A stretch of DNA of 64,000 nt. Source: Isoetes taiwanensis. Taxonomy: Eukaryota > Streptophyta > Lycopodiopsida > Isoetales > Isoetaceae. Within the stretch, counting starts at the first letter, position 1. The number at the start of each line of letters is the position of its first letter. A model generated the notes under the pieces. The model ran no database searches. It was not told the origin of the DNA and saw only the letters and a program-made list of their open reading frames with translations. Both the position numbers and the translations under genes were made by a program. Positions 6,107 to 31,089 of this stretch are shown here, piece by piece. Location of the stretch: positions 18,646,386-18,710,385 of the forward strand of contig JAJEKV010000003.1 in NCBI GenBank assembly GCA_021234155.1, read 5' to 3'.

Positions 6107-6107
6107 G

Positions 6108-6592: not shown

Positions 6593-6692
6593 CAATAGTT
6601 AGAAAAGTCTAAATTACGCCCATGTAACAGGTTAATAAGTGTCTTGGCTCACCCAAAAGAGTAGTTTGAAATTTGACCAAAAATTGACCATC

Positions 6693-6700
6693 TATAAATA
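6693..6700 (+). promoter_or_regulatory. TATA box of element A ORF1
   Basis: TATAAATA followed by GACCTAGACC lies 118 bp before the ORF1 ATG at 6811. The same box sits at the same spacing before ORF1 and ORF2 in B and C, which suggests an internal promoter separate from the LTR. Confidence 0.7.
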
Positions 6701-6810
6701 GACCTAGACCCCCCCCCCCCCCCAATTTCTACGTTCCTCTTTGGAAAAATCGCTCCCCCTTGCTAAGGCGATTTTTGGGCGCCCGACATCGGATTGACGA
6801 GCCGTCAAAC

Positions 6811-7459: not shown

Positions 7460-8969
7460 TGTGACGTCCCCTACTCATATACGATGCCCGCACCATATAC
7501 AAACAGGAGTTCATCCCCCGCACCAGCTACATACTGATACAGGGCCCTCCACATATCACTGTGTCCGCCTAGAGTCCACAGTGGGAAGAGTGAAGGGGTC
7601 ATTTTACCCCGTCTTCCTCAGGGCCTACCTAGCTGCGGAAGCGTAAATATACACGTCAGTAACATAACATCATATATCCACCTCGAAGGGTGGCACATCA
7701 AACTCTGCATAGACAAAGATCGGCACAATACAAGGGAAGTTCCTACCCAAGGCTCGGACTCGGGGGAAGGACCGACTAGCTTGATCTCTCCGAGTTGGTC
7801 TGCGCGAGAATCATGGCGGTGGATTGGGTGGCATAAGAACATGGCTTAGGGTTGTCCACTCCATCCGCCCCTCCCGTGCACACTTTGCGAGTAGGTTGAA
7901 AAGTGTTGGGACTGGCCCAGTAGGCCCGGGGTGCATAGCCAAGGGGGCTATTCTGGGCTACATCTCCCGGTCCCGATATGGGGCGGTAGGGATCACTCCC
8001 TCGAGAGATCTACATGCTGACCCAAGGTGACTAGAGGGCCCTTGCCCTTATTCGACTTAACCCTTTGGAAGGTGAACTCCACCCCACGGGTGTCGAGCCC
8101 ATGCCTTACCCACACTCAGTGGCAAGCCATTAGACCTAGTCACTCTGATCCCCGGTAGGCCTTACACACCAGAGGGATCGGTCAAGGGTCAGAACACGAA
8201 CCTCATTCTAAGCCCGGTCGGCCCCTTCACCCACAAACGGTGGGGTTCTTGTGCACAGGCGAATTCTAGTAATGCACTAAGAGGGACTAGCTAGGAGCAT
8301 CATCTACTAAGCTTTAAGTCTCTACCCACCCTTCCCAATACAATGAGTCCACAGAATACAACCATCCATCATATGATCATAAATAATAAGAACTAATCTA
8401 ATACATAGAGTCAATTCTTTAGTTAGAGTCAATCTCAGGGTCTGTTGGGCTACTAAGGGCGATTTAATAGGCTAAACCTACTAGTTGAGAAGGTTTTGGA
8501 ATGAGGTTTAAGCTATTCAATCGACCAAATACCTGATCCCCTGGTTCACTCCCTCTTGATCCGAAGGCGTCCATGTCTCATTTCTGCCTCGGGATGCGGT
8601 CGGAAGGATGATCTGACAAGCTGGGGCGTGCGTTGGCAGATCGTGGGAGTTGGAATTGACTCCTCGGGCGCGCGAATCGGAGCTCTCGGAAGGTGCGGGC
8701 GAAAAAAGGGAATGTTAGGGTTTGGTGCCTTATGTAGGCTATCGGTTAGGTTTAGGGTTCCCATGACCCTTTGTCTACCTTTAAGGGTTTAAAGGTCTAA
8801 AAGGTTGCGCATTGCTAAGTGTGCGCACCATTGCAAGTTGCCCCCTAGGGCGTCCTTGCTTGAGTATTCGTCGGCGTACATCGTCGACCGGGGCGGCGAT
8901 AATGCTTGGCGTCAAGACAAGATGCGGTATACGCCCCGAGACCGTATATATCGTCTTTGGAGCGTCACA
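7460..8969 (-). repeat. Element B 3' LTR
   Basis: Reverse-strand LTR, TGTGACGTCCCC at 7460 to GCGTCACA at 8969. On the right it abuts TTCTCCCCACCTT (8970-8982), the reverse complement of the family's polypurine tract. It matches 35286-36775. Confidence 0.95.
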
Positions 8970-9344
8970 TTCTCCCCACCTTGAATTGATCTTTGTCCGC
9001 GGCATCTTTGGTCTCCAGCCTTGGGATCTTCTTAACACCGCAATCAACTTTGATGCATACCATATACTTATTATTATAGTTATGTATTTCGTAGTATTAC
9101 CTCAAGGTAATATTTATAGAACATTATTATACTATTATTCAATTCAATAGTTATCACTTATGTCATTATAACAATAACTCCTAAAGTTTCAGTCTATCAT
9201 TATATATACAATTATTGCTTGAGGTACTCTTTATTCCTTGCAACACATTATAACAAAATTGTGTTGCAAGTCTTCGTAGTTCGACCTCGTGGCCCTCCGG
9301 AGCGCTCTATTGGCCTGCAGGTCAACACTACGTTAGTACCATAA
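8970..9344 (-). other. Element B 3' untranslated region, distal part
   Basis: Non-coding sequence shared with the 3' regions of A and C. It holds the polypurine tract (8970-8982) and a perfect 11-bp stem CTTGCAACACA/TGTGTTGCAAG (9237-9247, 9260-9270) that is also present in A (48591-48625) and C (26922-26957). It is split from its proximal part (12534-12985) by the Helitron. Confidence 0.85.
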
Positions 9345-9839
9345 TCTTATATCTTATATAATAATGTTCTTATATAATAATGTTATAGAGTGTGTCTTGA
9401 ATCACGCCCTAATTTTGACGGCTAGGATTAGACGAGCAGATTTGACGGTCCAAAAATAAAGAAAACAGATGTACTTAGGCGGCCATCGAACTGGGCTATG
9501 CTACCGCGAGGCTGTCGAACTATTTCGGCGTAGCCCAATGTTTTACCTTGGGAGATTGGCTATCTGTTTTGTGAAAGAGTTTTGGATGCTTTGTCACTGG
9601 AGTGCAGCAGGCTTTATTGGCCATGGGAGCTCTTCTTCAAATGTCTCTCATTGCATCAAGAAGATAGCACCATTTGAGTTAATAGAATGATGATCTTCAG
9701 TAAACTCGATGCCAGATTTGGATGTGAGACCTCCCAGAGCAGATGGTTTCAAAATTCCTTTGCCCTTCCGAGACTTCCAAAGACAGTTTCAAAATTCCTT
9801 TGCTCGCTTCGAAGCTTGCACAAAGTTTTTTATGTTATG

Positions 9840-9947
9840 AATGATCATGGATGAAGCAGACTCTGAGAAAAGGACATGTGCTTGCATCTACAAACAAACA
9901 TAAAATCTGGAGGTCTTGCTGATCTGGGCTTAGTGTTGATGAGACAG
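9840..9947 (+). pseudogene. Exon-like open stretch inside the Helitron (possible captured exon)
   Basis: A frame open from about 9864 ends in ...GGLADLGLVLMRQ and is followed directly by a splice-donor-like CAG|GTATTT (9947/9948). It ends on a full codon, matching the phase-0 start of the next exon-like stretch at 10391. I do not recognise the protein, and the left boundary is uncertain. Confidence 0.35.
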
Positions 9948-10390
9948 GTATTTTTTGTACTTGCATTTTTGCTTAGGAATTATATATATTCCGCCCATTC
10001 TACATGCATATTTGCTTTGGTGCTTGCTTAGAGAAGAGCCAGTTATTAAGTTCGGTGCAGAAGAATGCATGTCCCCTTTTACATGCATTTTTTTAGCCTT
10101 GATGTTTGCGTTGCATATTATTATCTATCATGTTAGATCTGTAAATTAGAAGAGTTATCTTCATGTACAACTGAAAATATGGTCTCTTTTATGTGCTCAA
10201 CTTAAAATCTGGAAAGTACAACTCTATATAGCTGCCATTTGCTCTAGGAAGCTTGGTCTGGACAGATCAATTGTGTGTCATTGTTCTTCATGATGAGTAT
10301 GTATGCACACATGATAATTAATGATTAAATACAAGATTGAATAATCTGGAAGATATATTAAGCTTAATTTTGTGTTTTCTGCCTATCTAG

Positions 10391-10501
10391 ATCGTAGGAG
10401 TCCTGCTGCATGCTACTAAGCAACTGCAAGCACACTGTAAGTCTTGCCAAAATGTTGCCGTCCTTGAGATTTCTTATGATTGCATTCGAGATGGAATTCA
10501 G
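10391..10501 (+). pseudogene. Exon-like 111-nt stretch inside the Helitron (possible captured exon)
   Basis: A 37-codon open stretch is flanked by an acceptor-like CTATCTAG (before 10391) and a donor-like CAG|GTCAGG (after 10501). Its translation (IVGVLLHATKQLQ..., with ...VAVLEISYDC) looks protein-like. The phase is 0 at both ends and agrees with the stretch ending at 9947. I cannot name the source gene. Gene-fragment capture is common in plant Helitrons. Confidence 0.45.
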
Positions 10502-12533
10502 GTCAGGTTATCTTCATGTGGAGCAGTTTTTTTCATGTATTAGACTTTTCATAAGGTGTCCAAAGTTTATAGGTCACATTTTTTGGGATCTTTTTGAGTT
10601 TAAGCTTCACTCACGGGACCTCATTTTCTTATTCATTTTTTTTTAGTCAATGGGCCTATAGTAATACTTAAACATGCGGGCCGACAACATAGATGACAGT
10701 GACAAACCGATCTCCAAGCATGTAAGCTCAAACACCATATACAATAGCATTTCAAATATCATTTCATATGCTTTGGCAGTGTACATTCTGTAAACATGCA
10801 TTTGATCCCTTTTAATCCCATAGCATTGTTTGGGAGGATTTTGAAGTGTTTGCAAGGTTTAGGGGGTTTCTGTAGTGCCATCAGGGGGTAACAAAGTCAT
10901 CGTGATATAATGAAAAAGATATGGCTTTTGTTGCTGTCGTGCTTCTATGCAGCTCAATTTGATGAATTTGTTGAAAAATCTATCTTGCATATATGCTAAA
11001 ACATCAGTAATTTTATATAATATGCATGCCCACATAATACAGCATATAAGTGAACATTCAAGATATTGGTTTATTATGGGAAAATTTTGTCACCCTTTAA
11101 TTATCCTGTCCATGTTGCAAGCTCCAATGTCTGGCTTATTACACGAAAATCTATTCTGCCCATATTGCTACTTTTGGAAATAACAATGTCTTATGTTTGA
11201 ACTAACGTGTCCAATGAATCTATTGCAGGGTACAGTTCTTTGCAGCCAAGGCAATGTAACGTTGACTTCATATTTGTTGAACAGAATATTATTGTTGATG
11301 TATGCACGTAATTTAGCTACAAAGCTGAACAACAGCAATAATTGCAGCACAAATGTTGTATTGCTTACGGTTTCATCAACTTACAATTTCATCATCTTAT
11401 GTTCTATACAACTGTATTTAAATATTGATTGGGCCCACACATCTATCAAATTTAAAGCTTTAAAATGCAAAATTAAGGCACTAGCACAATGTTGGCAACA
11501 TGCCAACATGCCATCGATAAAGGTCCATGCCGTATTAGTATTGGTACAATATTGGCAAAATGCCATTGATCCCTTCCACACATGAAAGATCTTAGTCATA
11601 TTAGAGTGCCCTCAAACATTAGATAGGTAGAAACACTAAAGCCAAGTTCACCATGGACAAGTAGGTCGTACATCACAAAATGAAAATGAAAGACACGCCA
11701 AAAAATAATACAAAACGAAAATGAAAGACACGCCAAAAAATAATAAGCTATGCGAAACCTTTACCTCTTCAAATATGAAGGCATCCCCTCTTCAAAAAAA
11801 AGGGGGGGAAAGAGGGGGAAAGAATTCCTGAATGTTTTGAGCCATACGATAATTTTTTACTAAGGCCCAGATTCCACTGAGCTGGAAGTTCTTATACCTG
11901 GACGAATTGCAAAAGCCCAATAACAAAGTTTTTGGGTTTTGACATTCCATTACTGACCCAGAGAGTTCACGATGTGGCGGCCACAATCAAAGTTTTTATT
12001 GCCGGGCAAGATCCCTAGGAGTTTGCGACTCTATTTCTAACGAACTATCATTCAATCTAGGCTAAGTCAATGGTATGATCCATACAACTATACATGTGGC
12101 AATACACACTTAAATGGAATAATAAAAGAACATTGAACCATTGAGATCGGGAAAGGATAAAAGAGATAAATAAAAGAACATTCGACATTGAGATCCTGAA
12201 AAGGATTAAAATTGTCACGGTTCACATGGCAAACATCCTCAACTAGCAAAATAAAGAGGTGGTGGAGGAATCGAACCTCCACACACCCCACACACTCCAC
12301 AAAATAAAAATTGAAAAAGATGCAGAAATACGATACAATACATTTCTGATAGATGAGAACATGTAGAGATACAATGCAAAATTGGATAAAAAGGCCATTA
12401 AGCTCTTGAAACCTTCAAGAGCACAAGCATAAGCATAAGCACAAATGATTCTTTGAAGCAGCTCTAATCCTAAATAATATCACTTACACGTTCTTCTTAA
12501 CTTATGCCCAGCAACGCTGGGCACCATTACTAG

Positions 12534-12985
12534 TTATTAATAAAATTTTTGGTTATATGGTGACCACCCCACCTATCTACATGGATGCATGGCTAATCTC
12601 CCGGCGTCGGAAGAGGGTGAGTCTTCCATTATGGCCGTGGGGACAGCGCCTATATGCCTATATGCCGCTCATGCCTACACCCTAGTTGCCCAGCGTGGCG
12701 GATAGGTCCTTCCCGTATAGGGGGCGTGAAGGCCAGATTCCTCCTATCAAAGCATATATGGGGTTAGAGGTGCTTTTCCGATCAATGCATTCTTCAATGA
12801 CCTCCTTTCTCTCGAGGTCGTCTACTTCCGTGGGACAGAAGTAGACTTTCCAAGCGGAACCGCGGTCATGCCTACATTGACATTACACCACGTCCTAGAG
12901 ATCACCGTGGTAATCTCATCATCGGCAACAACGCATGCAACCTTAACCTCATAGGTTGCATGCGTAGATTATACTAAACAAGCTA
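12534..12985 (-). other. Element B 3' untranslated region, proximal part
   Basis: Non-coding, similar (reverse complement) to 26367-26860 in C and 48076-48500 in A. It continues the segment 8970-9344 across the Helitron. Confidence 0.85.
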
Positions 12986-15626
12986 TTAATCTACTCGAAT
13001 CGACATGCCTGAGCCGATTTCTTCGGAGATGACCTTGCCGTCCCATTGCTCCATAAACTGTGGGTACTGTTTTTCCAGATCTCTTTTGAGTACCCATGTC
13101 GCGTCTTCCACTGGCAAGTGTTTCCACTTGACTAAGTATTGGAGAAACTCCGATCTCCTTGTTTTCTTGAATGCTTTATCAAGAATTAGCTCTGGAACTA
13201 TTTCTAACTGTTCTTCTGTCATTTCCAACATCGTTGGAGTGTCCAAAACTTCTTACGGATTGGGGGTATGCTTCTTGGCCAGACTCCGTGGAAGACTTTG
13301 TGTATCTTTAAGTGTCTTTGGTAAGTCTAGTGCGTAGGATTGGTTACCCACTCTCTTGACTATTTTGAATGGTCCAGCCCACCTTGGAGCAAGCTTCTTG
13401 CAATTTTCGATGCGGAGCTTCGCCTGCTTTACCTTGATCTTGAGCCACACATTGTCGCCAACTTGATTTCCTCGGGCTGTTCGATGTTTGTCGGCGATGC
13501 TCTTTTAACGACTTCTTCTTTGCTAGGAGGTATCCCCGCACTTCTTCTACGAGCTGGCGTGCATGTCGCCAAAGCATTTGTTGAGAGACTTCTACTTTTG
13601 ACGGGATTGTGCCAAGTGTGCGGAGTTAGGCATTGGTAGCCGTAGTTGATCATGAGCGGGGACATTTGGGATGATTCTTGCTTGGTGCTATTGTATGCAA
13701 ATTCCACCAAGTGAATAAATTCCTCCCACATACCTTGCTTGTTCCAGACGTAGTTTCTGAGTATGTCTTCCAATATTCTGTTGATACGCTCTGTTTGCCC
13801 GTCCGTCTGAGGATGATAGGCCGTGCTCATGGATAATTTTGTTCCAATCGTTGTGAAGAGAGATCCCGCGAAAAGCAGCGATGAACCGGATCTCGGTGGG
13901 AGATGATTTCCCTTGGCATGCCATGGAGTGCGAAGATCTCTTTGGTGAAGAGCTTTCTTGCGTGTCCATAGTCGCGTGTCCGGTGGTCCTGCAAGGCACA
14001 AAATGTGCCATTTTCGACAACTTGTCGACCACGACCATTAAGGCATCCTTGCCTCTTACCGTCCTCGGCAGTCCTGTTATAAAGTCCATGCTGACTACTT
14101 CCCACTTAGCGTTTGGGACGGCTAATGGTTCCAATTCCCACGGTATTCGAGTTGTTCGCGCCTTTGTTTCTTTGGCATAGCTGACATTCCTTGATGTAGC
14201 GGGCTATTTGCTTCTTCATTCCGGCCAATAGTAGCTGCTACGCACTTTAAAATATGTCTTCATAAATCACGCATGGCGGCTATTGGGCTGTTGTGGTTGT
14301 CGTGGAGGATCAACTTCCTTACTCCGGATGATTCGCACGCACAACTTGTTCTTATGGTATAGGAGGTCACCTTCCTTCTTAAAGTTTTGAAGGCTTCCCT
14401 CTCCTTATCCGTTTCGCCTCCTTTTGCAGGCTTGCCCATACTTCCTTGAAGTCGACATCGTTGGCGAGTTTCTTCTATCTTTTTTCCCCGAAATCATTTG
14501 AAGAGCGTCGAGATTGCGTTGCGATTGCACCCCGGTTGTCGGTGGATGCCTTGAAAGCGCATCTGCTACCACATTAAGCTTCGGGCTTGTGGACTATCTC
14601 AAAGTCGTACTCTTGAGAAACTCCATCCACCTTCTCGCCTTAGATTGAGATGTGGTTGTGTGAATCGTCTTGGAGGCTCACGGTGATCGGTGTCAACTGA
14701 AACTTCCTCCCTAAGAGGTAATGCCTCAGATTCTCAATGCCCGACAAGCGCTAGCAGCTCTTGATCATCGCGTCGGGTGTCGTTTTGGGCGTCGTTCATT
14801 TTCCTTGAGTAAATGCGCTATTACCCGCTCTTCTTGCATCGACCTTTTTGTGGCTATCTTGCTTGCGTCCCGCCGCCACCAACTTGTCCTTTTAAGGTGC
14901 GGCGAGGTCAAGACGGGAGCGGTTGTCAAAGCTTCCTTCAACAACTCAAATCCTGCTTGGGCTTTCTTGAGCCAATGGTCGGCCCAATTTTTGACTTTCT
15001 CCGTCTTTGTCAGGTCCGTCAGTGGAGCTGCTATCTTTGTGAAGTTCTTCACGAACTTCCTGTAGTACCCTGCTAGGCCAAGGAAACTTCTGACCTCGTG
15101 GACGTTCTTTGGTGCTGGCCATTGGATGACTGCTTCAATCTTGGCGGGGTGCCGCCGAGATTCCTTCTGCTGAAATCACATGACCGAGGTATTCCACCTT
15201 TTACATTTGCGCGGTGACGCCCGACAACTTGGCATACAATTGATGCCTCCTTAACTTCTCGAGCACCTTTCTGACGTGCTAAGCATGCTCTTCAATGAAT
15301 TTACTGTACACCAGAATGTCATCGAAGAATACTATCACAAAGGTGTCCAAGTATTCTCTGAAGATGTCGTTCATGAGTCTCATGAACGTAGCTGGGGCAT
15401 TGGATAGCCCAAATGGCATTACGGTGAATTCGTAATGCCCATATCTGGTCCTGAAAGCCGTTTTGTGGATGTCCTCTTCCTTTATTCTGATCTGGTGATA
15501 GCCTGATCTTAGGTCGATCTTGGAGAAGACCCTTGCCCCTTGGAGTTGATCCATCAAGTCGTCTGACCTGGGGAGTGCGTACTTGTTCTTGATGGTGTGC
15601 TTGTTCAATTGTCTGTAATCTATGCA
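12986..15626 (-). pseudogene. pol: Element B pol, 3' part (reverse transcriptase to chromodomain)
   Basis: Read right to left it holds reverse transcriptase with the FFDD catalytic motif (about 15315-15330), RNase H, integrase and a clean chromodomain segment (13246-12986; [17 protein letters not shown]). It is broken by many small indels, for example around 15270, 14600-14900, 14150 and 13640. Its 5' part is displaced to 28813-29570 by element C, whose ATGCA duplication (15622-15626) lies in the codons of the [10 protein letters not shown] motif. Confidence 0.92.
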
Positions 15627-17169
15627 TGTGACGTTCAAAGCCACGATTATCACGGTCCCGAACGTATATCGCATCGCCTCACACGCAGCGTACCGCCACT
15701 CGACCGGGCGTGCGCGACGACGGATAGCCAGGTAAGTAGCCCTAGGGGCAACTTGCTAGGTATGTTCACATGTTATTAATGTGCACATATGCACATTAAT
15801 GTGGGCACACTTTTCCATGTGGGCACATTTTGCCACCTAGCCATTAATGGCAAGTGGGCCCTTTCCAATTATCCCACATGCCAAAAAGGGATAATTGGAA
15901 ACCCTAGCCCTAACCCCATGTCTATTTAGGGTAGGGAAACCCTAACTTGCTAGTTTTCGTCCATAGGGTTTTAGAGCTCTGTTTTGGCTGCCCCAGGAGC
16001 CAAAACCGCCTCCCAGACGCTGCCCAAGCGAATCGCACCATCAGTTTTCCTGAATTCGATCAGCTCAGCAGAATGGTTGAACTCAGGTCAGGAGGAGCCA
16101 CCTAGGGATCAGGTATTTGGTCAATTTAATAGCTTAAACCGTCTTCTAGTCATAGAACCAGTAAGTTTAGACTATTAAATTGCCCATAGCAGCTATCTAG
16201 ATCTTTAGATCTCAGACACTAACTAAAGAACCTAACTCTATGATATAAATTAGATCTAGTTCTTTAGTTCTTCTGTGATGTATATGGATGATGTATCTCT
16301 GTGAACTCCTTGTATTGGGAAGGGGGGTAGAGGCCCTGAAGCTGTGTAGTTGATGCTCCTAGCATAGCCTCTCTAACACACTGTAGATTCGGCCTGTGTA
16401 CAAGAACCACACCTTGAGAAGGAGGTTCATGTCCTGACTCTTGAACGATCCCTCTGGTGTGTAAAGCCTACCAGGGATCATTGTGACTAGGTCTAATGGC
16501 TCACCACTGAGTGCGGGTAAGGCATGGACTCGACACGTGAAGTGGTGTACACTTTCCGGTGGGTTCGGTCGAATCACAGGCGGTGGCCCTCTAGTCACCT
16601 TGAGTCGGCATGTAGATCTCTGGGGTGATCCCTTCCCGCCCCATCGGGCTGGGAGGATGAGACCCGGGGAATAGCCCCTTGGCTATGCATCCCGTGGGCT
16701 CTGATCCAGTCCGGCGGCTTTTCAGCCTACTCTGCAAAGTGTACACAGGAGGGGCGGATGGAGTGGTCAACCCTATGCCATGTTCTTATGCCGACCAACT
16801 CCATTGCCATGAATTGCATGCGCAATGAACTCACGGAGACCCAAGCCGTCGGTCATCCCTCGAGCCCCAGAGCCTTGGGTAGGATTCCCCATGTGATGTG
16901 CTGATCATTGTCTATGCAGGTGGTGGTGCACCACCCTTCGAGGTGGATGGAGGATTATGTTGAGTACTGACATGTATGTTTTCGCTTCCGCAGCTAGGTC
17001 GGCCCTGAGGGAGGCGAGGGTAGAATGACACCTTCACTCTTCCCTTTGGGACTCATTCACGGTGTGCGATGATGTGTGGAGGGCCTGTGATCGGTGTGGA
17101 GCTGGTATGGGGAAGAACTCTGTTTGTATCACGGTGAGGGCAGGTATGATGCGAGTAGGGGACGTCACA
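15627..17169 (+). repeat. Element C 5' LTR
   Basis: TGTGACGTTC to GGGGACGTCACA. Its first ~110 bp (CCACGATTATCACGGTCCC...) differ from those of A, marking a subfamily, while the remainder is clearly related. It pairs with 27252-28812. Confidence 0.95.
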
Positions 17170-17170
17170 A

Positions 17171-17182
17171 TGGTATCAGAGC
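17171..17182 (+). promoter_or_regulatory. Primer-binding site (initiator Met tRNA), element C
   Basis: TGGTATCAGAGC one base after the LTR. Confidence 0.95.
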
Positions 17183-17371
17183 AATGTTCTTGGAGACCAA
17201 GAGCAAAGCACTGGCCATGTTCCAGTAGTACTGACTTGATAGGATCCTCAAGCCTCGAAAAGTGGGAAAATTTTTCTCATTTTTGTAGTTATGCTAAGCT
17301 AGTAACAATTAAGTTTAATTGGAATTTGATAAGATTAAAAAGAATAAGCCCAAAATTTTCCAAGTGAGGTG

Positions 17372-17626
17372 GTCTCACATTTCACCGGTCATGAGAACTA
17401 AATTTCAGTTTTGGAGCGAGGCGCAAGCTGTGAGACATCGAGCCAAGACCACCAAAATATGATGAATTTGAGAAAAGTAATGTGGTAAGGCCAGTTCTAA
17501 GGTAGGAATTAATTAGAATAGCACGTTTTAATTACCTAAATAACCTAGAAATGTATGAGATCTCACAGCTCGTGCCTGGTCTAAAAACTAAACTTTAGTT
17601 TTGGAGCGAGGCGCAAGCTGTGAGAC
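17372..17626 (+). repeat. Leader hairpin pair upstream of ORF1, element C
   Basis: Hairpins lie at 17372-17436 (left arm partly decayed) and about 17559-17626 (arms CTCACAGCT/AGCTGTGAG, inner AAAACTAAA/TTTAGTTTT). They are 190 nt apart in a non-coding AT-rich leader (17183-17838) and precede the TATA box, as in A. Confidence 0.85.
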
Positions 17627-17729
17627 CAATAGGTAGAAAAAAAGTCTGAAATAAGTGTAAATTTCAATTAAATAGGTGCTTAGCATGTTAAATAGAGCAA
17701 CTTGAATTTTGATCTAAAACTTCCCAAGC

Positions 17730-17737
17730 TATAAATA
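17730..17737 (+). promoter_or_regulatory. TATA box of element C ORF1
   Basis: TATAAATA then GATGTAGACCCCCC, 109 bp before the ATG at 17839. Confidence 0.72.
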
Positions 17738-17838
17738 GATGTAGACCCCCCTCATTTCCACGTCCCAGTCCTAGAAATCCGCTCCTCCGCACTTAGGCGA
17801 TCTTTTGGCGCTTTTACCCGATTGACAATCCGTAAAGC

Positions 17839-19092
17839 ATGGCCCGAACCAAACAGACCGCCAGGAAGTGTCGCCCAGGCGAAACCACCAGCGCCACTGA
17901 GGCTGAGATCATTCGACAGATGCTTCGCGACAGGCTCGCGAAAGGAGGTCGTTCACCTTCGAACGGGGAAGACGTCTCGGAGGAACAAGACACGTCCGAT
18001 CTGATTGACGTCTTCAACCAGCAGGTGGAGCAGGACGAGGCAACATCACCAACCTCCATGGACGAGGAGACAAGGGAGGTATATGAAGAAATAGAGCGGG
18101 AGATCCGGCGGCAGGAAGGAGCAGAAGATCATTCTGATGCAGCCACGGAGATCCTCGAGCAGGAAGAGCAGGCGACAGGTCTGGAGCCAGCGGAGGAAGC
18201 AGATCTCGCGAGATTCATTAGAAAATATGAACACCGGGAGAAAAAGAAGGAAGACAAAAAGAGGAAGAGGGAGGAGGAGGAACACAAGGCGGCAGAAGAG
18301 AAAAAGAAGGCGAAGGGGAAGTTCGTGGTCGGCACAAGGAAGCTGAAGGACGTCCCGCCAAGGAAGAGGCCTAACCCCAAGATCGTCATCAAGGAGCGGC
18401 AAGCCGACGAACCTCCGAACCCCTCCGACGACTCTTCTGATGAGGACGTCAACCCTAATGCTGCAGGTGGAAGCTCTTCTAAACACCCAGGCGACGAACA
18501 GGTAGCACCTGAGCAACCCCAGCAAGATCAAGTACAGAAGCCCCCTGAGTACCCGGCGTGGGATAGGAAGAAACAGCCGCGCCCTGCCCGTGAAGCTTAC
18601 GTCACCGACAGGGTAAAGATATACGAAAGAAAGATGAGGGAGCACGAGGCTTATATGAAGAAATGGGAAGCCTACAGCAAGTACTACGAAGAAAACAGAG
18701 TTGCATTTGTTGAAGGAGGGCGCTCAACGAAGCAACAGACCTTGAAGCCGCCACCACCAAAGCCCAAGGCCCCCAAGCCGCCACCCAAGAAGAAGATTGA
18801 CAGGAAGGAGGTGGAGAGGAGAGCGCTAAGGGAGATTAGGCACTTCCAGCGCAGCTACAGTCTTCTAATTCCCCGTGCCCCCTTTGCTCGGTTAGTGCGA
18901 GAAGTGATGCAGGCCTACAGGACGGACTTTAGAGTCACAGATGAGGCGCTGCTGGCAATGCAAGAGGCGGCTGAGGCAAAGATAGTGCAACATTTTGAAG
19001 ATTCAACAGCTTGCACTGTTCACGCCAAGCGGGTAACCCTCATGCGACAGGACATGAGTCTTGCGACCCGCATAAAGGGAGAACGCCCTTAG
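17839..19092 (+). CDS. ORF1: split histone H3 protein (H3 tail + 318-aa insert + H3 fold)
   Basis: 417 residues, uninterrupted. Residues 1-10 are MARTKQTARK, identical to the canonical H3 tail through lysine 9, so Arg2, Thr3, Lys4, Arg8 and Lys9 are all present; Ser10 is replaced by Cys. Residues 11-328 are an insert: acidic (about 40-125), Lys/Glu coiled-coil-like (about 125-165), basic, then proline-rich (about 300-320). Residues 329-417 run from ALREIR to RIKGERP and align without gaps to the 89 residues of the H3 alpha-N to C-terminus, about 50 identical by eye. Kept H3 residues include FxRLVRE, TDxR of loop 1, LQEAAEA-like, FED, and C/HAKRVT with the His and Asp of the H3-H3 interface. 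Loop 1 is not lengthened, so it derives from canonical H3, not CENH3. It is preceded by its own TATA box. I infer a nuclear, chromatin-directed protein; nucleosome incorporation is untested. Confidence 0.95.
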   Translation: MARTKQTARKCRPGETTSATEAEIIRQMLRDRLAKGGRSPSNGEDVSEEQDTSDLIDVFNQQVEQDEATSPTSMDEETREVYEEIEREIRRQEGAEDHSDAATEILEQEEQATGLEPAEEADLARFIRKYEHREKKKEDKKRKREEEEHKAAEEKKKAKGKFVVGTRKLKDVPPRKRPNPKIVIKERQADEPPNPSDDSSDEDVNPNAAGGSSSKHPGDEQVAPEQPQQDQVQKPPEYPAWDRKKQPRPAREAYVTDRVKIYERKMREHEAYMKKWEAYSKYYEENRVAFVEGGRSTKQQTLKPPPPKPKAPKPPPKKKIDRKEVERRALREIRHFQRSYSLLIPRAPFARLVREVMQAYRTDFRVTDEALLAMQEAAEAKIVQHFEDSTACTVHAKRVTLMRQDMSLATRIKGERP

Positions 19093-19240
19093 AACCTTTT
19101 TTGTAAATAATTAAAATTTTTTTGTAATATAGAGCAATTTTGTGTACTCTAATTGCATGAGCTGGATTAATTAGGGCAAGTTAGTAAGTTTTAGCTTTTA
19201 TTTCAGTAAAATAGGACATTTGCAAACCGAAAAATGTGAT

Positions 19241-19507
19241 GTCTCACAGCTCGCGCCTGGTCGCAAAACTAAATTTTAGTTTTGAAGCGAGGCGCAAGCT
19301 GTGAGACCTCGCCCAAACTTGACCAAAACAGCTCCAAATCGACCAAATAAGGGGTCAATTCTGTCTGATTTGATGAGCCCGTCATCCTTACACCCTTAGT
19401 TTACCCAAATTGGATACCTTTTGATCGGAATGAGATTGATGTCTCACAGCTCGCGCCTGGTCGAAGAACTAAACTTTAGTTTTTAAACGAGGCGCAAGCT
19501 GTGAGAC
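19241..19507 (+). repeat. Hairpin pair between ORF1 and ORF2, element C
   Basis: Two 67-nt hairpins at 19241-19307 and 19441-19507 with arms GTCTCACAGCT/AGCTGTGAGAC, GCGCCT/AGGCGC and an inner AAACTAAA/TTTAGTTT stem. The remainder of 19093-19818 is AT-rich and non-coding. Same 200-nt spacing as the leader pair. Confidence 0.9.
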
Positions 19508-19695
19508 CTCCTACCATTTCTTCACCAGGACTTGTCCAGATCATCCTCAACCCGTTGTATAGCATCTTTTAGGTAATCTAACCTTGTTCAAACATCTCAT
19601 CTAGTCTTCAAATTCCCATTTTGACCTCAGATAGACTAGAATTACCCAACCCTAGGAATTTCCAAGTCATCCAAAAATTAGGGTTTCCCCCTTTC

Positions 19696-19703
19696 TATAA
19701 ATA
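19696..19703 (+). promoter_or_regulatory. TATA box of element C ORF2
   Basis: TATAAATA then GACCCC, 123 bp before the ORF2 ATG at 19819. It repeats the arrangement upstream of ORF1. Confidence 0.7.
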
Positions 19704-19818
19704 GACCCCTCATTTCTCAGATAGCACCCTACAAATCTGCTCCTGCCCTTCTAGCCGATTTCTCAACTCCCCTCGAGGCTCTTGCAACCCGTTTGTTACC
19801 CCTTTCCGCAATTAACCA

Positions 19819-21350
19819 ATGGCAACCTCGATTTTTTGAGATGGTACAAGCCGCGCTCATGCTGCCGAGGCTGACGTCGACCAAATCTCCCATATCTTCA
19901 GGAAGGAGGTAGATGTCCAAGCAACCTTGCACGCAACCCCACCTACAGTGAGAAGTCTTGTTTGAGTTCCAAGCTAGGGTAGAACCGGTAGCTAGTGCAA
20001 CTCCCCCTTGCATAGGCTACTTTGTTCCTAGGCAATCCCCGCAAACAAACATCGGGGTGATATCCCAAACATTGCCAAGTACTGACAAACAAAGCGCACA
20101 AGACACTCCGAGCCAATGGTCCTAAGCTGTCCAATGGGACCAAGTACTTCTCTTTCAACACCGCTTTGGCAATCTTTCTCACCCACCGTCGCGAGAAACA
20201 CCGTGAGGGGAAACCTCCATTCCCCCTTGGACATAGACCCATTAGCCATAGCAAAGAACAAGCGGCTCCTTACGCAAGTATGAGCGGAGCAGGAAGGAAA
20301 AGAAGAGGAGGACTGTAATTTAACGGGGAATCGAGGAGGAGGAAGACTATGTCGATTTCGACCCGTGGAGGAGCGGCGACAAGCGAGCGAGGAGTGGCAA
20401 GACTTCGAGAAGAACGGCAAACTCGTCGAGTCGCTGCCCTTTGGGTTAGGCATTACAAGCCTAGCCCCCATTATTGTTGAAGCGAGGAGTTTCGCTTCTA
20501 AGCGACATCCAAACCTTCAGTCGAGGGGAAAGGAGTACCGACCTGGAAGAATTGCCGCACCAACTCCGGAAGAACGGACTTAGACAACTTCATCGTCAGA
20601 GGAGCATCGACTTCCCCTCTAAGTAAGGGAAGCCGACACTTACGGGGAGAGTCTACCTCCGACATCCAAGCCCTGGCAAACATTATGGATTATGGAGGAC
20701 CAAGCCGCTTAAATCAACTCACCGGCGGAGGAAGAGTTCCTTGCCCTCACAGAGCAGATGGGGATCCGCCACGCAACATCGAACATCCTAACGGCAAGCT
20801 GGAAATTGGCAGCACCTCCCCGAGAGAAGAGGCGAAGCCCCGACCTGGGAGAGCTTCAGAAAGCGGGCCGAGACTACAGGGGACCTCATCACGGTGGAAA
20901 TAGATGACTTTGCGGCGCGGAACCGAGCTGGATACCGAGTGGCCGGGCGGGCCTACTTAGCGATTGGGTCATTGCGGTACTACGCCCTGGCGATGGATGG
21001 AAGAATAGCGGTAATTCACCGCAAATTCTTGAGGCGAGGAAGGAGTATCGATGCTAATTGCGCTCTCGAGGATTTGGCGGCATGCTTGGCGGTTGCCCCT
21101 CAACACCAAAGTATGCCATCACGGTAAAGAGAGCGTAGCACTCGATGTTTTCGACCGCCATACCTTACAAGCGGCAAGCAAGGCTGGCGTGACCGCGGCT
21201 TATACCCCGCAGGGGTAGAAGACTTGGCGAGAGCCTTTGTGTATGGATCTTGACCAACATCCTTAGGAACTTGGGTCATTCAATTGGGAACAGCCCAAGT
21301 GAAAAAGTTCCTAGAGGATAATCCATCCTACGGCAACATCAAGAATAGTT
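19819..21350 (+). pseudogene. Element C ORF2, unrecognised accessory protein, decayed
   Basis: It corresponds to element A 41650-43125. The start MATS is followed within a few codons by a stop, then by recognisable pieces such as FRKEVDVQATLHATP, the acidic block around 20310-20400, GLGITSLAPII (about 20440) and DGRIAVIHRKF (about 21000). Numerous indels break the frame. I recognise no domain; see the copy in A for the clearest reading. Confidence 0.75.
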
Positions 21351-21499
21351 AGCAATCTTGATCAGGAAGTTTTAATTTTGTATTAGCATATTATAAAATA
21401 TGAATATAATTTCTTTTTGCACTATAAATGTTTTGTGGATGTATTTTGTGTCCCCAACTATACCAACAAACATAAATAATGCAAGAGAATAAGTAAAAC

Positions 21500-22870
21500 T
21501 AACCATATAGCCATGAACTACTTGTGTATGCAGCTAGAGGCCTAAGCTCGGGGAACGACAATAGAAGGGAACATGTGGAAGAACGAGTCCGCCCAGCCAC
21601 GCAAGCAAGAAACCCTCGTTCGAGGAATTTGGAGCCATCACCCCTAAGAGGAAATATCTCGTGATGAGGGCCGGACCGAACGGATAAAGGCTTTGTCGCC
21701 GCAAAAGTAAGAGCTGGGTTTCCGGTGGGCAACGCTTTCGTTGCCTCAAGCATCGGTTCGAAAAACGGGGAGAGACAAGAAGAGAAGCAAGAGAAGGAGG
21801 TCCCCGGCTTCGAATCCTGGACTCAAGATTGGTCAGACTCCGGGACAGGAGGAAGAGGAAGAGCAGCCCAGGACCGAAACGGATGCAAGGCGAGAAACCG
21901 GCAGATGCAAAGGCAGAGGGACGCCATAGATGGATCGACAAAAGGGACACGAACCTCGACTACGTAAGAAGGTAGATTCCTGACTTTGGGCAATGTATGG
22001 AAGGCCCTGAATCGGAACAGTTCTCGAGGGGGAGAACAGTCGATTAGAAAGCGAGAGGCATGGCTGGGCCGAAATGAGTGAGTGCGGCAATGCTTATGGC
22101 ATGAAGGATAAGGACAAAGGTAGAGTGGCAACAGCCAACTTGAAAGGAGCCGCACGAATTTGGTGGAAAGGTTATGCAAAGGCACATGGCTTAAGCAGGG
22201 ATGCTTGTAAGTTCAGGAAGTTTGCTAAAGCCTTCAAGCGCCATTACGTACCAAGGGAGCACAAGTCCAACATGATGCAGCAGTTCTACAGGTTGCAGCA
22301 AGGCAACAAGTCAGTCGAAAAATATCTGAGAGGAATTCATGAGGTCGAGGTGGCATGCGTGCCAAAGTTAGGTGAAAAGCATGCGGTAGAAAGCTACGTT
22401 GAAGGCCCGAATGAGGAGATCCATAAGCTTGTAAGGGCAATAAACCCCTAGAAACGATGCTCAGAAGCGGAGTCCAAGGCAATAAGCTTGCAAGGAACGG
22501 GACCTCAGAATAGCGGGCAGAGGCAGCAGTAATACCAGGACAAAGGCAAGGCAGCAGGCAGTTTTAGCCCAAGGACAGCCAGCCCAGGACCAGCTAGAGC
22601 CCCGTATAGCGGCAATCAGGGGAAGCGGCGAGAGAAGAAGCGGGGTGTCCTTCAAAGACAAGCAGGAAGGGTCAAACTACTCCAAAGCAGTGCGTTCCTT
22701 TTTGCAGGCCATGCCCAAGGAAAAGAGACAGGAGTGCATAGAAAAGCAGCTTTGCTTCATGTGCTTCCAGCCAAAGCCATAGGGCAATGAAGCGCCATAT
22801 CGTCATGAGTGCAAAAAGCGAGTTGGGAGATTGGGACACCACGACGACGACGGCGGCGAGGAAGCCCGCT
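21500..22870 (+). pseudogene. gag: Element C gag, decayed
   Basis: The Gypsy gag domain is clear at 22074-22449 (GRVATANLKGAARIWWKGYA, FAKAFKRHYVPREHKSNMMQQFYRLQQG). Upstream is a Lys/Arg/Ser-rich, RS-like stretch corresponding to SKRRRSPS in A and B. A stop at 22449 and frameshifts on both sides inactivate it. The zinc-knuckle region near 22740-22810 is frayed. Confidence 0.85.
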
Positions 22871-22904
22871 GACTACATTGTGGTGAGTGTCATATCTTTG
22901 CCAT

Positions 22905-23168
22905 AATAGATACAAAGCAAAGAGAGCCGCGATATAAAGTAATTTCCACGGTAGGGAAGGCCAAGACCAAGTCCTTCATAGTCTTGATAGACTCAGGAAG
23001 TAGCCATAACTTTGCATCCCCCAGAATGGTTCAAATGTTGAAGTTGAAACCACTAAAGTCAAAGCCAAGGCCCGTTGTCTTAGCAAGTGGAGCAATAAGG
23101 CAGATGGCAGGTAAGAGAATCAACCGACATCGACTTGCGGGGATTAAAATCCGGATGGGGCAGAAGTA
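22905..23168 (+). pseudogene. pol: Element C protease remnant
   Basis: It contains the aspartic protease active site in [15 protein letters not shown] (about 22984-23030) and flap-region LASGAIR. A one-base loss in a G run near 23157-23160 (GGGGC here, GGGGGC in element A) throws it out of frame with the downstream pol. Confidence 0.85.
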
Positions 23169-26100
23169 ATGGGCATTGGCAAATACGACTTGATCATAGG
23201 TATGGAGTACCTTGGACCAGCAGGGGCCATTATCGATTGTGGAAAGCGGAAGGTGACCTTCCCAATGCCCGACGGCAAGATCATTGAGATCACAGGTAAA
23301 GAAGTTGTTCCCGTCATGCAGTGTATGTCTTCTAAACAGCTGTTCAAGTGCATCAAGAGTGAGCAGGTGGCATACATCTTCAAGCTTGAGATTAGTGAGC
23401 CGGAATCAGAAGAAAGCAAAGAAGACAAGGTGCTCAGCAAGTTGCCGAAGCAAATAGCTGAGCTGATCACGGAGTTCCATGATCTCTTTCCAGATGAGAT
23501 CAAGCAGCTTCCTCCTTATAGGGGAGTCGAGTGCGAGATAGCACTCGAACCGGGAACAAAGCCGACAAGCAAGGCTCCATACAGAATGACGATGCAGGAG
23601 TTGTCAGAACTAAAGAAGCAATTGCAGGAGCTACTCGACCTAGGATTCATTAGGCCTAGCGTCTCGCCGTTTGGAGCGCCCATTCTTTTTGTCAAGAAGA
23701 AGGATGGATCCTTGAGGATGTGCATAGACTATAGGCAGTTGAATAAGCACACCATTAAGAACAAGTATGCGCTCCCAAGATCAGACGACTTGATGGATCA
23801 GCTTCAAGGAGCAAGGATCTTCTCCAAAATCGACTTAAGGTCAGGTTATCATCAGATCCGGATAAAGGAGGAAGATATCCATAAGACCGCCTTCAGAACG
23901 CGGTATGGGCACTATGAGTTCACGGTAATGCCTTTCGGCTTATCGAATGCCCCCGCGACGTTCATGAGGCTCATGAACGACATCTTCAGGGAGTTTTTAG
24001 ACACCTTTGTGATTGTATTCTTTGACGACATTTTGGTGTATAGCAGATCCCTTGAAGAGCACGTACAACACTTAAGGAGAGTGCTAGAGAAGTTGAAGAG
24101 GCACCAGTTGTACGCCAAGTTGTCGAAGTGCCACTTCGCAACGGAGAAGGTAGAATACCTGGGTCACGTGATCTCAGCAGAAGGCATCTCGACGGACCCC
24201 GCCAAGATTGAAGCAGTGATTCAGTGGCCGGCGCCGAAGAATGTGCACGAGGTCAGAAGTTTTCTCGGGTTAGCAGGGTACTATAGGAAGTTCGTGAAGA
24301 ACTTTGCTAAGATAGCGGCCCCGTTAACAGATTTGACGAGGGCAGAGAAGGTGAAAGATTGGGCAGAGCATTGGCACAAGACAGCCCAAAAGGGGTTTGA
24401 ATTGTTGAAGGAAGCTTTGACGACAGCCCCTGTCTTGACCCTGCCGGACCCGGAGAAAGATAAGCTTGTAGCAACAGATGCGAGTAAGATAGCTACAGGT
24501 GCAGTGCTTATGCAAGAAGAGCGCGTGGTAGCATATGATTCCAGGAAGATGAACGACGCCGAGACGCGCTACCCAACGCACGATCAGGAATTGCTTGCAG
24601 TTGTCAGGGCGTTAAGAATATGGAGGCACTACCTCTTGGGAAGGAAGTTCCAATTGGATACTGACCATCAGAGCCTCCAGTATGTATTCACGCAACCACA
24701 CCTTAATCTGAGGCAGCGGAGGTGGATGGAGTTCCTCGAAGAATATGACTTTGTTATAGTCTACAAGCCGGGGAAGCTCAATGTGGTAGCAGATGCGCTT
24801 TCAAGACATCCCCTGACAACTAGAGTGCATTGCAATGCAATTTCGACGCTCTCCAGCGACTTTGGTAAGAAGATTGAAGAGTCCTTGCCAACGGATGTGG
24901 ATTTCAGGGAAGTATGGGCAAGCCTCTCTAAGGAGGCTAGAACAGATAAAGAGCGGGAGGCCTTCAAGCATTATAAGAAGGAAGGCAACCTGTTATATCA
25001 TAAGAACAAGTTGTGCGTACTCGAATCATCAGGTGTAAGGAAGTTGATCCTCCACGACACGCACAACAGCCCAATAGCTGGCCATGCGGGCTTCATGAAA
25101 ATATATTTCAAAGTGCGCAGCAGCTATTATTGGCCAGGAATGAAGAAGCAAGTAGCTCGCTACATCAAAGAATATCAGCTATGCCAGCAGACGAAGGCGG
25201 AGCAGCTTCGAATTCCAGGGGCATTAGAGCCATTAGCGGTGCCAAATGCTAAGTGGGAGGTGATCAGCATGGATTTCATCACAGGGCTCCCAAGGACGGT
25301 AAGAGGGAAGGATGCCTTGATGGTAGTGGTCGACAAGTTGTCGAAGATGGCACACTTCGTGCCTTGCAAGACCACGAGTCTGACTATGGATACAGCAAAG
25401 CTCTTCACCAAAGAGATCTTCGGGCTTCATGGCATGCCAAGGGAGATTATATCCGACAGGGACCCGAAGTTCATGAGTGCATTTTGGCAAGACCTCTTTG
25501 CGACGATTCAGACCAAGCTATCCATGAGCACGGCGTATCATCCTCAGACGGATGGCCAAACGGAGCGGACCAACAGGATCTTAGAAGACATGCTACGAAA
25601 CTATGTCTGGAATAAGCAAAGTATGTGGGAAGAATTTATTCACTTGGTGGAGTTTGCATACAATAGCACCAAGCAGGAATCATCCCAAATGTCGCCGTTT
25701 ATGATCAATTACGGCTACCAGTGCCTAACTCCAGACACTTGGCACAACCCTGTGTCAAAAGTGGAAGTTTCGCAGCAGATGTTGGCCGATATGCAGCAGC
25801 TTGTGGAAGAGGTTCGAGGGTATCTGCTAGCAGCAAGAAGTCGACAAAAGAGCATCGCCGACAAGCATCGAACAGTCAGAGAGTTCAAGGTTGGAGATGA
25901 TGTATGGCTCAAGATCAAGGTGAAGCAGGCGAAGCTCAGGATCGGGAATTGCAAGAAGCTTGCTCCAAGGTGGGCTGGACCTTTCAGAATAATTAAGAGA
26001 GTAGGTAATCAATCCTACAAGTTAGATTTGCCAGCACACCTAAAGATTCATAAGGTCTTCCATGTGAGTTTGTTGAAGAAGTACACTCCAAACCCAGACG

Positions 26101-26366
26101 AAGTCTTGGACACTCCAACGTTGTTGGAAATGACGGAGGAGCAGCTGGAAATAGTTCCAGAATTGATTCTTGATAAAGCTTTCAAGAAAACAAGGAGGTC
26201 GGAGTTCCTCCAATACTTGGTTAAGTGGAAGCACTTGCCGGTGGAAGACGCGACATGGGTACTCAAGAAAGATTTGGAAAAACAGTACCCACAGTTTATG
26301 GAGCAATGGGACGGCAAGGTCATCTCCGAAGAAATCGGCTCAGGCATGTCGAATTGTGTAGGTTAA
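23169..26366 (+). CDS. pol: Element C pol: reverse transcriptase, RNase H, integrase, chromodomain
   Basis: 1065 residues open from the first ATG after the protease frameshift. Residues 7-15 (DLIIGMEYL) are the end of the protease. Reverse transcriptase spans about 100-330, with FFDDILVYS near 285. RNase H lies at about 430-560 ([27 protein letters not shown]). Integrase runs from about 625 with catalytic Asp in SMDFITGLP (about 700), Asp in SDRDPKF (about 763) and Glu in GQTERTN (about 798). The zinc site HDTHN...H...YQLCQQ has Tyr for the first cysteine, which is Cys in element A, so C's integrase may be impaired. The C-terminal chromodomain (about 997-1040) has [21 protein letters not shown]; its aromatic cage is only partial, as in many plant chromoviruses. 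Confidence 0.96.
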
Positions 26367-27238
26367 TTCTTGTGTAGTTAGATTAATCTACGCATGCCAC
26401 CTATGCTTGGTATGGGTCGCATGTGTTGTTACCGATGATGGGACCACTACGGTGATCTCTAGGGCGTGGTGTAATGCCAATGTAGGCATGACCGCATTTT
26501 TAAACAGGAAAGTGGAAGGTAGATTAGAAAGTCTACTGTTCCACGGAGTAGGCGACCTCGAAGAAAGGAGGTCATTAAGGAATGCAGCGATAGGGAAAAG
26601 CACCTCTAGCCCCATATATGCTTTGATAGGAGGAATCAGGCCCTTCACGCCCCATATCTGGGAAGGACCTATCCTCCTCCTTATTTGGGCAACTAGGGTG
26701 TAGGCATGAGCGGCATATAGGCATATAAGCGCTGTCTCCACGGCCATAATGGAAGATTCACCCTCTTCCTACGCCGGGAGATTAGCCATGCATCCATGTA
26801 GATAGGTGGGGTGGTCACCATATAACCAAAAATTTATTAAATAATTAAAATGGTACTAACGTAGTATCGACCTGCAGGCCAATAGAGCGCTCCGGAGGGC
26901 AAGGAGGTCGAGCTACGAAGACTTGCAACACAAATTTTTGTTGGAATGTGTTGCAAGGAACGAAGAGTACCTCGAACAATAATTATAGATATGAAATGTT
27001 GAAATTTTGTCTAACTTAATGTCATAATAACTGAGATAGCGAATAACTTGTTTAATGATGTTATGAATTGATAAGTATTCCATAGTATGATGACGTGAAA
27101 ATGTTCTAAAAATATTACCTTAGGGTAATCTTGGTAAATGTATAACTATTATATTGTATGCATCACGTTGATTGCAGATTGCAGATTAGGAAGATCCCAA
27201 GGTGGGGAGACCCACGATGCTGCGGACAGCATCATTTC
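26367..27238 (+). other. Element C 3' untranslated region with conserved stem-loops
   Basis: Non-coding. The stem CTTGCAACACA/TGTGTTGCAAG at 26922-26957 recurs in A and B. Close to the LTR lies a first purine tract AAGGTGGGGAGA (27199-27210) and a perfect stem GATGCTG-CGGA-CAGCATC (27216-27233). The reason for conserving this 0.9-kb region is unknown. Confidence 0.85.
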
Positions 27239-27251
27239 AAGGTGGGGAGAA
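27239..27251 (+). promoter_or_regulatory. Polypurine tract, element C
   Basis: AAGGTGGGGAGAA immediately before the 3' LTR; identical in A (48904-48916) and, reversed, in B (8970-8982). Confidence 0.9.
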
Positions 27252-28812
27252 TGTGACGTTCGGCCACGATTATCACGGTCCCGAGGCATTATCGCATCGC
27301 CCGCCACGCAGCGTACCGCCACTCCGACCGACGTGTACGCCGACGAATAGCCAGGTAAGTAGCCCTAGGGGCAACTTGCTAGGTATGTTCACATGTTATT
27401 AATGTGCACATATGCACATTAATGTGGGCACACTTTTCCATGTGGGCACATTTTGCCACCTAGCCATTAATGGCAAGTGGGCCCTTTCCAATTATCCCAC
27501 ATGCCAAAAAGGGATAATTGGAAACCCTAGCCCTAACCCCATGTCTATTTAGAGTAGGGAAACCCTAACTTGCTAGTTTTCATCCATAGGGTTTTAGAGC
27601 TCTGTTTTGGCTGGCCCAGGAGCCAAAACCGCCTCCCGAGCGACGCCCAAGCTTAATCGCACCATCAGTTTTCCTGAATTCGATCAGCTCAGCAGAATGG
27701 TTGAACTCAGGTCAGGAGGAGCCACCCAAGGATCAGATATTTGGTCAATTTAATAGCTTAAACCGTCTTCTAGTCATAGAACCAGTAAGTTTAGACTATT
27801 AAATTGCCCATAGCAGCTATCTAGATCTTTAGATCTCAGACACTAACTAAAGAACCTAACTCTATGATATAGATTAGATCTAGTTCTTTAGTTCTTCTGT
27901 GATGTATATGGATGATGTATCTCTGTGAACTCCTTGTATTGGGAAGGGGGGTAGAGGCCCTGAAGCTGTGTAGTTGATGCTCCTAGCATAGCCTCTCTAA
28001 CACACTGTAGATTCGGCCTGTGTACAAGAACCACACCTGGTTGTGGGTGAAGGGGCTAGACTGGCTGAGAAGGAGGTTTATGTCCTGACTCTTGAACGAT
28101 CCCTCTGGTGTGTAAAGCCTACCAGGGATCATTGTGACTAGGTCTAATGGCTCATCGCTGAGTGCGGGTAAGGCATGGACTCGACACCCGTGAAGTGGTG
28201 TACACTTTCCAGTGGGTTGGTCGAAAGGCGGTGGCCCTCTAGTCACCTTGAGTCGGCATGTAGATCTCGGAGGGAGTGATCCCTTCCCGCCCCATCGGGC
28301 GGGAGGATGAGACCGGGGAATAGCCCCTTCGGCTATGCATCCGTGGGCTCTGATCAGTCCCGGCGGCTTTTCAGCCTACTCTGCAAAGTGTACACAGGAG
28401 GGGCGGATGGAGTGGTCAACCCTATGCCATGTTCTTATGCCAGCCAACTCCATTGCCATGAATTCTGTCTGCAATGAACTCTGGAGACCCAAGTCGTCAG
28501 TCATCCCCTCGAGTCTGAGCCTTGGGTAGGATTCCCCATGTGATGTGTTGATCATTGTCTATGCAGGTGGTGGTGCACCACCCTTCGAGGTGGATGGAGG
28601 ATTATGTTGAGTACTGACATGTATGTTTTCGCTTCCGCAGCTAGGTCGGCCCTGAGGGAGACAGGGTAGAATGACACCTTCACTCTTCCCACTGGGACTC
28701 ATTACGGGTGCAGTGATGTGTGGAGGGCCCTGTATCAGTGTGGAGCTGGTATGGGGGAAGAACTCCTGTTTGTATACGGTGAGGGCACCGTATGCGAGTA
28801 GGGGACGTCACA
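27252..28812 (+). repeat. Element C 3' LTR
   Basis: TGTGACGTTCGGCC to GGGGACGTCACA, followed by the duplicated ATGCA. Very similar to the 5' LTR; small indels distinguish them (for example near 16410 and 28050). Confidence 0.95.
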
Positions 28813-30990: not shown

Positions 30991-31089
30991 ATTATATGTG
31001 TTGTTGGTATAGTTGCGGAACAAAATATATCAACAAAACATTTAAAAATGCAGAAGAAGTTATATTTATATTATATAATATGTTTACTA

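Follow-up and report, generated by a model that had tools for sequence, protein, structure and literature searches.

A histone H3 gene at the head of nested chromodomain elements

The window analysed here, a stretch of 64,000 nucleotides from the genome of Isoetes taiwanensis, contains three nested LTR retrotransposons, A, B and C, each bounded by its own 5-bp target site duplication and each carrying, in the same place, an open reading frame (ORF1) for a protein with the fold of histone H3 (Table 1). In element A, a Ty3/Gypsy chromodomain element whose structure is complete, ORF1 comes first among the genes and lies upstream of gag. The assignment to the Ty3/Gypsy chromoviruses follows from the LTRs with their 5-bp duplication, a primer binding site that we take to be of the initiator-tRNA (initiator-Met) type, a polypurine tract recognised by eye, and the order reverse transcriptase (RT), RNase H, integrase and C-terminal chromodomain within pol. 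The RT, the RNase H, the integrase zinc finger (59.7 bits) and the chromodomain (Chromo, 39.3 bits against a cut-off of 25.1) all pass their Pfam cut-offs, and the integrase core (rve) falls just under its own (31.4 versus 32.6 bits). The gag piece of element C matches Retrotrans_gag. The initial annotation had described the surroundings of ORF1 as a full-length Ty3/Gypsy element, which is borne out by the LTRs, duplication, primer binding site and pol but has to be qualified, as the frames of ORF2 and gag are broken in this structurally complete copy.

Table 1. Features of elements A, B and C in the window
Feature	Position	Strand	Remarks
Element A, 5' LTR	15627..17169	+	93.9% identity to 3' LTR
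Element A, 3' LTR	27252..28812	+	
Element A, target site duplications	left 15622..15626, right 28813..28817	+	5 bp, ATGCA
Element A, primer binding site	17171..17182	+	TGGTATCAGAGC
Element A, ORF1	17839..19092	+	H3-fold protein, 417 aa
ORF1 of A, H3-tail decapeptide	17839..17868	+	MARTKQTARK
ORF1 of A, arm	17869..18822	+	residues 11-328, charged
ORF1 of A, H3 fold	18823..19089	+	residues 329-417
Element A, ORF2 remnant	19698..21692	+	second accessory gene, frameshifted; kin to 41531-43490 of element C
Element A, gag segment	22011..22451	+	frame broken; similarity to element C gag
Element A, pol	23169..26366	+	RT, RNase H, integrase, chromodomain at C-terminus
Pol of A, chromodomain	26154..26312	+	
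Element B	7460..36775	-	duplication ACATA; LTRs 91.3% identical; element A inside
Element B, ORF1	33355..34614	-	MARTKQTARK...H3 fold; single stop (TGA) in fold
Element C	4644..50345	+	duplication ACTTC; LTRs 98.3% identical; B and a LINE inside
Element C, ORF1, part one	6811..7460	+	MARGHP..., without H3-tail codons
Element C, ORF1, part two	36776..37268	+	H3 fold; two stops and one frameshift

By eye, a 28-nt motif (TTTTGGAGCGAGGCGCAAGCTGTGAGAC) occurs twice in the leader of element A, at 17400-17640, ahead of ORF1. Database matches of pol come from Closterium, from angiosperms and from entries with PITA codes, presumably pine. A gag-pol of 1602 residues (P0122) with 83% identity to the pol of A was found on a 5-kb contig too short to include ORF1, indicating that a close relative of the element exists elsewhere. 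When the chromodomain is aligned manually to HP1 and compared with the three-aromatic cage of the group I (H3K9me-reading) chromodomains, the Trp is kept and the other two positions look aliphatic; the apparent absence of two of the three cage aromatics leaves a direct link between this domain and methylated K9 unsupported.

ORF2, the second accessory gene, lies between ORF1 and gag and is broken in A, B and C. It is clearest in C (approximately 41587-43106), where it has an acidic stretch, and persists as fragments in A and B; the pieces from B and C gave no Pfam match above cut-off. The ORF1 of element C is split by the insertion of element B. The LTR identities run against the nesting order, the outermost element C having the most similar pair and the innermost A a more similar pair than B, a contradiction for which gene conversion of the LTRs of C or a mosaic origin of the elements is a possible explanation. 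Between A and C, pS is 0.75-0.88 in ORF1, far above the 0.46 seen in pol, which suggests recombination between sub-lineages. The LINE inside element C (38204-41445) encodes endonuclease and reverse transcriptase domains, a further reverse transcriptase ORF at 55523-57190 (PF00078) looks to be of the non-LTR type, and at the end of the window (63127-63835) a primer binding site followed by a Copia-type gag (PF14223) marks the start of another LTR element.

The ORF1 protein

The ORF1 frame of element A is open over 417 codons and starts with ten residues identical to the canonical H3 tail. The protein matches the Pfam Histone family (PF00125) with 97.7 bits (E 7.6e-28, cut-off 26.4) and the top H3 chain in the PDB with 98.5 bits, and its C-terminal 89 residues align to plant H3.3 with no gap and 51 identities; the match to H3 is far beyond chance. 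The reading of this frame in the initial annotation, as a 417-codon gene joining the H3 decapeptide to an H3 fold with about 50 identities in a gapless 89-residue alignment, is thus confirmed, including by the profile search against the histone family that it had proposed. Its residue assignments are also correct: in A, Arg occupies H3 positions 56 and 79, and the position of S10 is taken by Cys (Ala in B). Although the phmmer alignment to H3 reaches back to residue 292, the recognisable H3 parts are limited to H3 residues 1-9 and 47 onward, with no continuous 1-46 tail containing RPGTVALREIR; the RPGT segment (H3 43-46) and R63 are missing from the family of ORF1 genes found in the window, referred to below as the window family. 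The interface residues of the histone core are largely retained. Six of eight H3-H3' contact positions are identical across A, B and C, the exceptions being N108, which is Thr, and R116, which coincides with the stop codon in B.

The arm that separates the tail from the fold contains 66 Lys and Arg and 71 Asp and Glu among its 318 residues and so is not net basic. Its residues 165-325 have no database homologue at E<=1 among 215 candidates. The initial annotation had viewed ORF1 as an H3 split by an insert. The C-terminal H3 core and the tail decapeptide stand; the bisection of a canonical H3 is not supported, given that candidate remnants of H3 10-46 within residues 11-328 did no better than shuffled sequences (p 0.27-0.75), that the fold groups with plant CENH3 in the trees described below, and that a sibling family is itself a fusion. 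Whole-protein matches (the 120 best of 8000 scored) were mostly gene models containing H3, and the 13 inspected proved to be H3s arranged in tandem or in fusions, unrelated to the arm. Six loci from a prokaryote collection have the look of eukaryotic H3 contamination and were used merely as additional H3 rows, and searches of viral contigs and plasmids with ORF1 gave no matches. The structure models of both the whole protein (pLDDT 53.5, with the arm at low confidence and some helix) and the fold alone (pLDDT 55.2) are poor. With the latter, Foldseek nevertheless points to H3 (best E 4.3e-4, TM about 0.5), a match that lends weak support to the modelled fold because H3 sequences were present in the model's own alignment.

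Copies, selection and a sibling family

The 1.66-Gb assembly of the host genome contains at least 109 matches to ORF1, with the best 100 of 20,111 candidates scored. Together with the gene's presence in three nested elements, this dispels the concern raised in the initial annotation that the frame might prove to be a chance insertion in a single copy. By our own count, 50 of the 109 listed matches extend from residue 1 to at least residue 414, and these are divided between 24 without stops and 26 with stops. We examined 28 loci (L007-L034), consisting of the eight best, among them the window copy, and 20 picked for the absence of listed stops. A single open frame with the fold is present in 26 of them, and a frame of at least 400 residues starting with MARTK or MAQTK in 22, an open fraction that is not representative of the genome, since most of the loci were picked for their lack of stops. 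Upstream of ORF1, an LTR end and primer binding site (within three edits) were found at seven of the eight loci checked, the window copy included, at a distance of 687-701 nt from the fourth ORF1 codon in the six that could be measured.

ORF1 is kept by purifying selection, with the tightest constraint on the H3-tail decapeptide. A comparison of A with B gives a dN/dS of 0.12 (bootstrap 0.05-0.24) for the fold, and the ten tail codons differ by five synonymous and no nonsynonymous changes. Averaged over the 22 open copies, pN/pS is 0.031 in codons 1-10, 0.123 in the fold, and 0.41 and 0.25 in the two halves of the arm; these figures rest on open frames at loci mostly picked for having no listed stops, and the MARTK or MAQTK start filter behind the tail value biases it toward conservation of codons 1-5. 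An unfiltered survey of the tail therefore took in the 28 loci, 20 further ones and window copy B, a total of 49 copies, of which 46 could be aligned and three (L034, L043, L046) could not at their starts. K4 and K9 are present in all 46, among them one copy badly degraded at its start (L042) and three others that lack one base of codon 8; the exact MARTKQTARK is found in 31. Ser is present at the Ser10 position in none of the 46, its place being taken by Arg, Pro, Ala, Cys, Thr or Leu. The tail is gone from window copy C, which was not one of the 49. The constraint on the tail and the retention of K4 and K9 argue that selection acts on the epitope that H3K4 and H3K9 enzymes recognise, from which the phospho-switch residue has gone.

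A search of the host genome with canonical H3 revealed, among the 150 scored of 9,031 candidates, 15 near-identical H3 genes (97-99% identity) and 135 places at 72-87% identity. We read 24 distinct loci of the latter group, the majority picked for long frames, and 18 of them hold an ORF of at least 380 residues in which an N-terminal region unlike that of the window family precedes a near-canonical H3 end (KPHRYRPGTVALREIR...). The sibling ORF (L071-L094, L101-L110) is about 400 residues long and consists of a new N-terminal domain of approximately 230 residues fused to near-canonical H3; in the two copies scanned this domain has no Pfam match above cut-off, and the homology sought between it and the N-terminal region of the window family was not found (probability 0.8%). 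More divergent H3-fusion ORFs occur at L084, L091 and L092, with N-terminal regions that seem to be different again and, in L092, a start reading MARTKG. Two sibling loci inspected in context are flanked by LTR pairs roughly 1.6 kb long, with identities of 95.4% and 90.3%, and in both elements, which have a related pol and the same type of primer binding site, the first long ORF downstream of that site is the H3 ORF. What the families have in common is the H3 core at the C-terminus, preceded by N-terminal regions that differ.

In 16 sibling copies, pN/pS is 0.030-0.036 in the H3 core, 0.17 in the N-terminal domain and 0.37 in the linker, the value for the core being lowered by the choice of these copies for their H3 similarity. 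Ten further copies were chosen by rank of the N-terminal domain, skipping one that was already included. All ten have H3 at the C-terminal end, undamaged in four and damaged in six; H3 pN/pS is 0.071 over the four intact copies and 0.78 over all ten, a figure in which the damaged pieces are counted. The same counting for the 15 host H3 genes gives 0.042, a value that two-step changes between serine codons may have inflated. In intact copies, the constraint on the sibling core (0.03-0.07) is thus close to that on host H3 (0.04).

As to the kind of H3 that was captured, in trees of the fold built with provisional CENH3 reference sequences the window family joins plant CENH3 (bootstrap 95, SH-aLRT 92-94), and it shares 7 of 16 plant-CENH3 states, versus 2-3 for animal and fungal CENP-A. 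Loop 1 of ORF1 is of canonical H3 length and lacks the extension typical of CENH3. With the same provisional references, a TE+H3 clade has a p-AU of 0.047 in the tree lacking the sibling family, and a single origin with that family is not rejected when it is included (p-AU 0.21-0.22). Of the phylogenetic comparison suggested in the initial annotation, the outcome is therefore a fold that groups away from canonical H3 and with the provisional plant CENH3 rows, and a shared origin with the sibling family that is not rejected; judged from these sequences, there may have been two captures, or one capture followed by divergence. Searching the host genome with CENH3 brought no recognisable host CENH3 among 150 matches scored, whose table rows did not distinguish such a gene from H3 genes and element copies.

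Retrotransposons that may contribute to chromatin

Mobile and viral genomes that encode histones include those of giant viruses and polydnaviruses; these are DNA viruses with other histone sets and are not known to be related to a retroelement. The closest precedent for the capture of H3 is in Dothideomycete fungi, where hAT elements multiplied an intron-less H3 coding sequence, as here (PMC6710886). These are DNA transposons whose copies in P. fijiensis and its relatives are mostly truncated and inactivated, many of those in Pyrenophora being called potentially active, and the accessible text of that report describes neither a long arm nor selection on the element copies (PMC6710886). Likewise, a Culex Helentron captured histones (H4 and H15), as damaged fragments within a rolling-circle element (PMC4067079). 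Among plant LTR retrotransposons, the Ogre/Tat elements share with element A an extra ORF between the 5' LTR and gag; their primer binding site corresponds to tRNA-Arg and that of element A to initiator Met. The nearest added ORF with tested activity is the AlkB RNA demethylase of orchid Ty3/Gypsy elements, which is similarly conserved and host-derived; there, however, an enzyme is encoded in Tat/Ogre-related elements with a tRNA-Arg site, whereas here a histone ORF lies upstream of gag in a chromodomain element (PMC9289625). Plant chromoviruses, including the centromeric retrotransposons, have the same type of gag-pol and an integrase chromodomain, with a link to chromatin-guided insertion; the known members read chromatin, and element A additionally encodes a histone (PMC12786077). 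Plant CENH3 resembles ORF1 in its divergent H3 fold and variable N-terminal tail (PMC8603533). The two also share LIPxAPF and TxExL-type residues, and they differ in that ORF1 has an unextended loop 1, a canonical H3-like tail start and a location within a retrotransposon. Among the open-licence PMC papers listed in our searches we recognised none describing a retrotransposon-encoded histone H3, and the word "histone" is absent from the main text of a review on the additional ORFs of plant LTR elements (PMC7264820). The initial annotation's remark that it knew of no described retroelement with a captured, bisected histone agrees with the literature searched, with the reservation that H3 capture by the fungal hAT transposons has been published (PMC6710886).

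An H3-like first gene under selection suggests that these elements supply part of the chromatin with which they interact. We consider the probabilities evenly balanced for and against ORF1 being an H3 variant that the element itself encodes, with a long N-terminal arm as its effector, and that, paired with H4, becomes part of chromatin. The protein would probably be the first to be translated from LTR-driven RNA, and would then probably be imported into the nucleus, pair with host H4 and be deposited in chromatin with its arm projecting. In the window family, the tip of the arm would present the H3 K4/K9 epitope without Ser10, and the arm would most likely mark or dock chromatin for the element, by guiding the integration complex or by maintaining active element chromatin. 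A more tentative extension, conceivable though somewhat on the doubtful side, is that of a retrotransposon lineage with an H3 variant as a core gene, in which element-labelled nucleosomes bear an arm, either with the K4/K9 tip lacking Ser10 or with the new domain, that directs integration or blocks silencing.

Other roles for the protein can be envisaged. A soluble or chromatin-bound ORF1 product might mainly sequester the host readers and writers of H3 K4 and K9 and so weaken the silencing of the element. The concentration of constraint in codons 1-10 and the retention of K4 and K9 with loss of Ser10 in all 46 alignable copies are what such a decoy would lead one to expect; we nevertheless regard it as rather unlikely, in that the fold is kept as well, the tail is lost in copy C, and sibling members that have no K9 region still keep a near-canonical H3 core. 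It is less probable again, and decidedly unlikely, that the window-family gene began as a captured CENH3 and that the centromeric histone pathway steers the element to centromeres. The grouping of the fold with plant CENH3 (95/92 and 95/94) and the 7 of 16 shared states favour this route and are countered by the H3-length loop 1, the provisional nature of the CENH3 rows, the p-AU of 0.21 for a shared origin with the sibling family, and the lack of a recognised host CENH3 among the 150 scored matches.

The position of the gene upstream of gag in the element and the charged arm would also suit a packaging protein that compacts the element's nucleic acid in virus-like particles or as unintegrated DNA. 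H3 wraps DNA only together with H4, the arm is not net basic, and the constraint on the H3 tail would have no explanation, so that we judge this role improbable. Finally, the captured H3 might be a passenger carried along with no function, for which the published fungal hAT captures provide a precedent (PMC6710886), and with which the stops in 26 of the 50 end-to-end matches and the damage to H3 in six of the ten sibling copies are compatible. The purifying selection seen when open copies from diverged sub-lineages are compared makes this highly improbable, and the dN/dS values largely refute it.

Retroelements are known as readers of chromatin through their integrase chromodomains, and DNA transposons of fungi have multiplied H3. 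The Isoetes elements offer a natural experiment to show how much of H3 is needed by a parasite, with the core constrained to about the degree of host H3 in the sibling family and tail residues 1-9 among the most constrained parts in the window family. They make testable the deposition of nucleosomes by an element, the behaviour of an H3 tail that lacks Ser10 and sits at the end of a 300-residue arm, and the tolerance of the host for a second pool of H3. If element-encoded H3 does enter chromatin as proposed, retroelements would write the composition of chromatin besides reading its marks.
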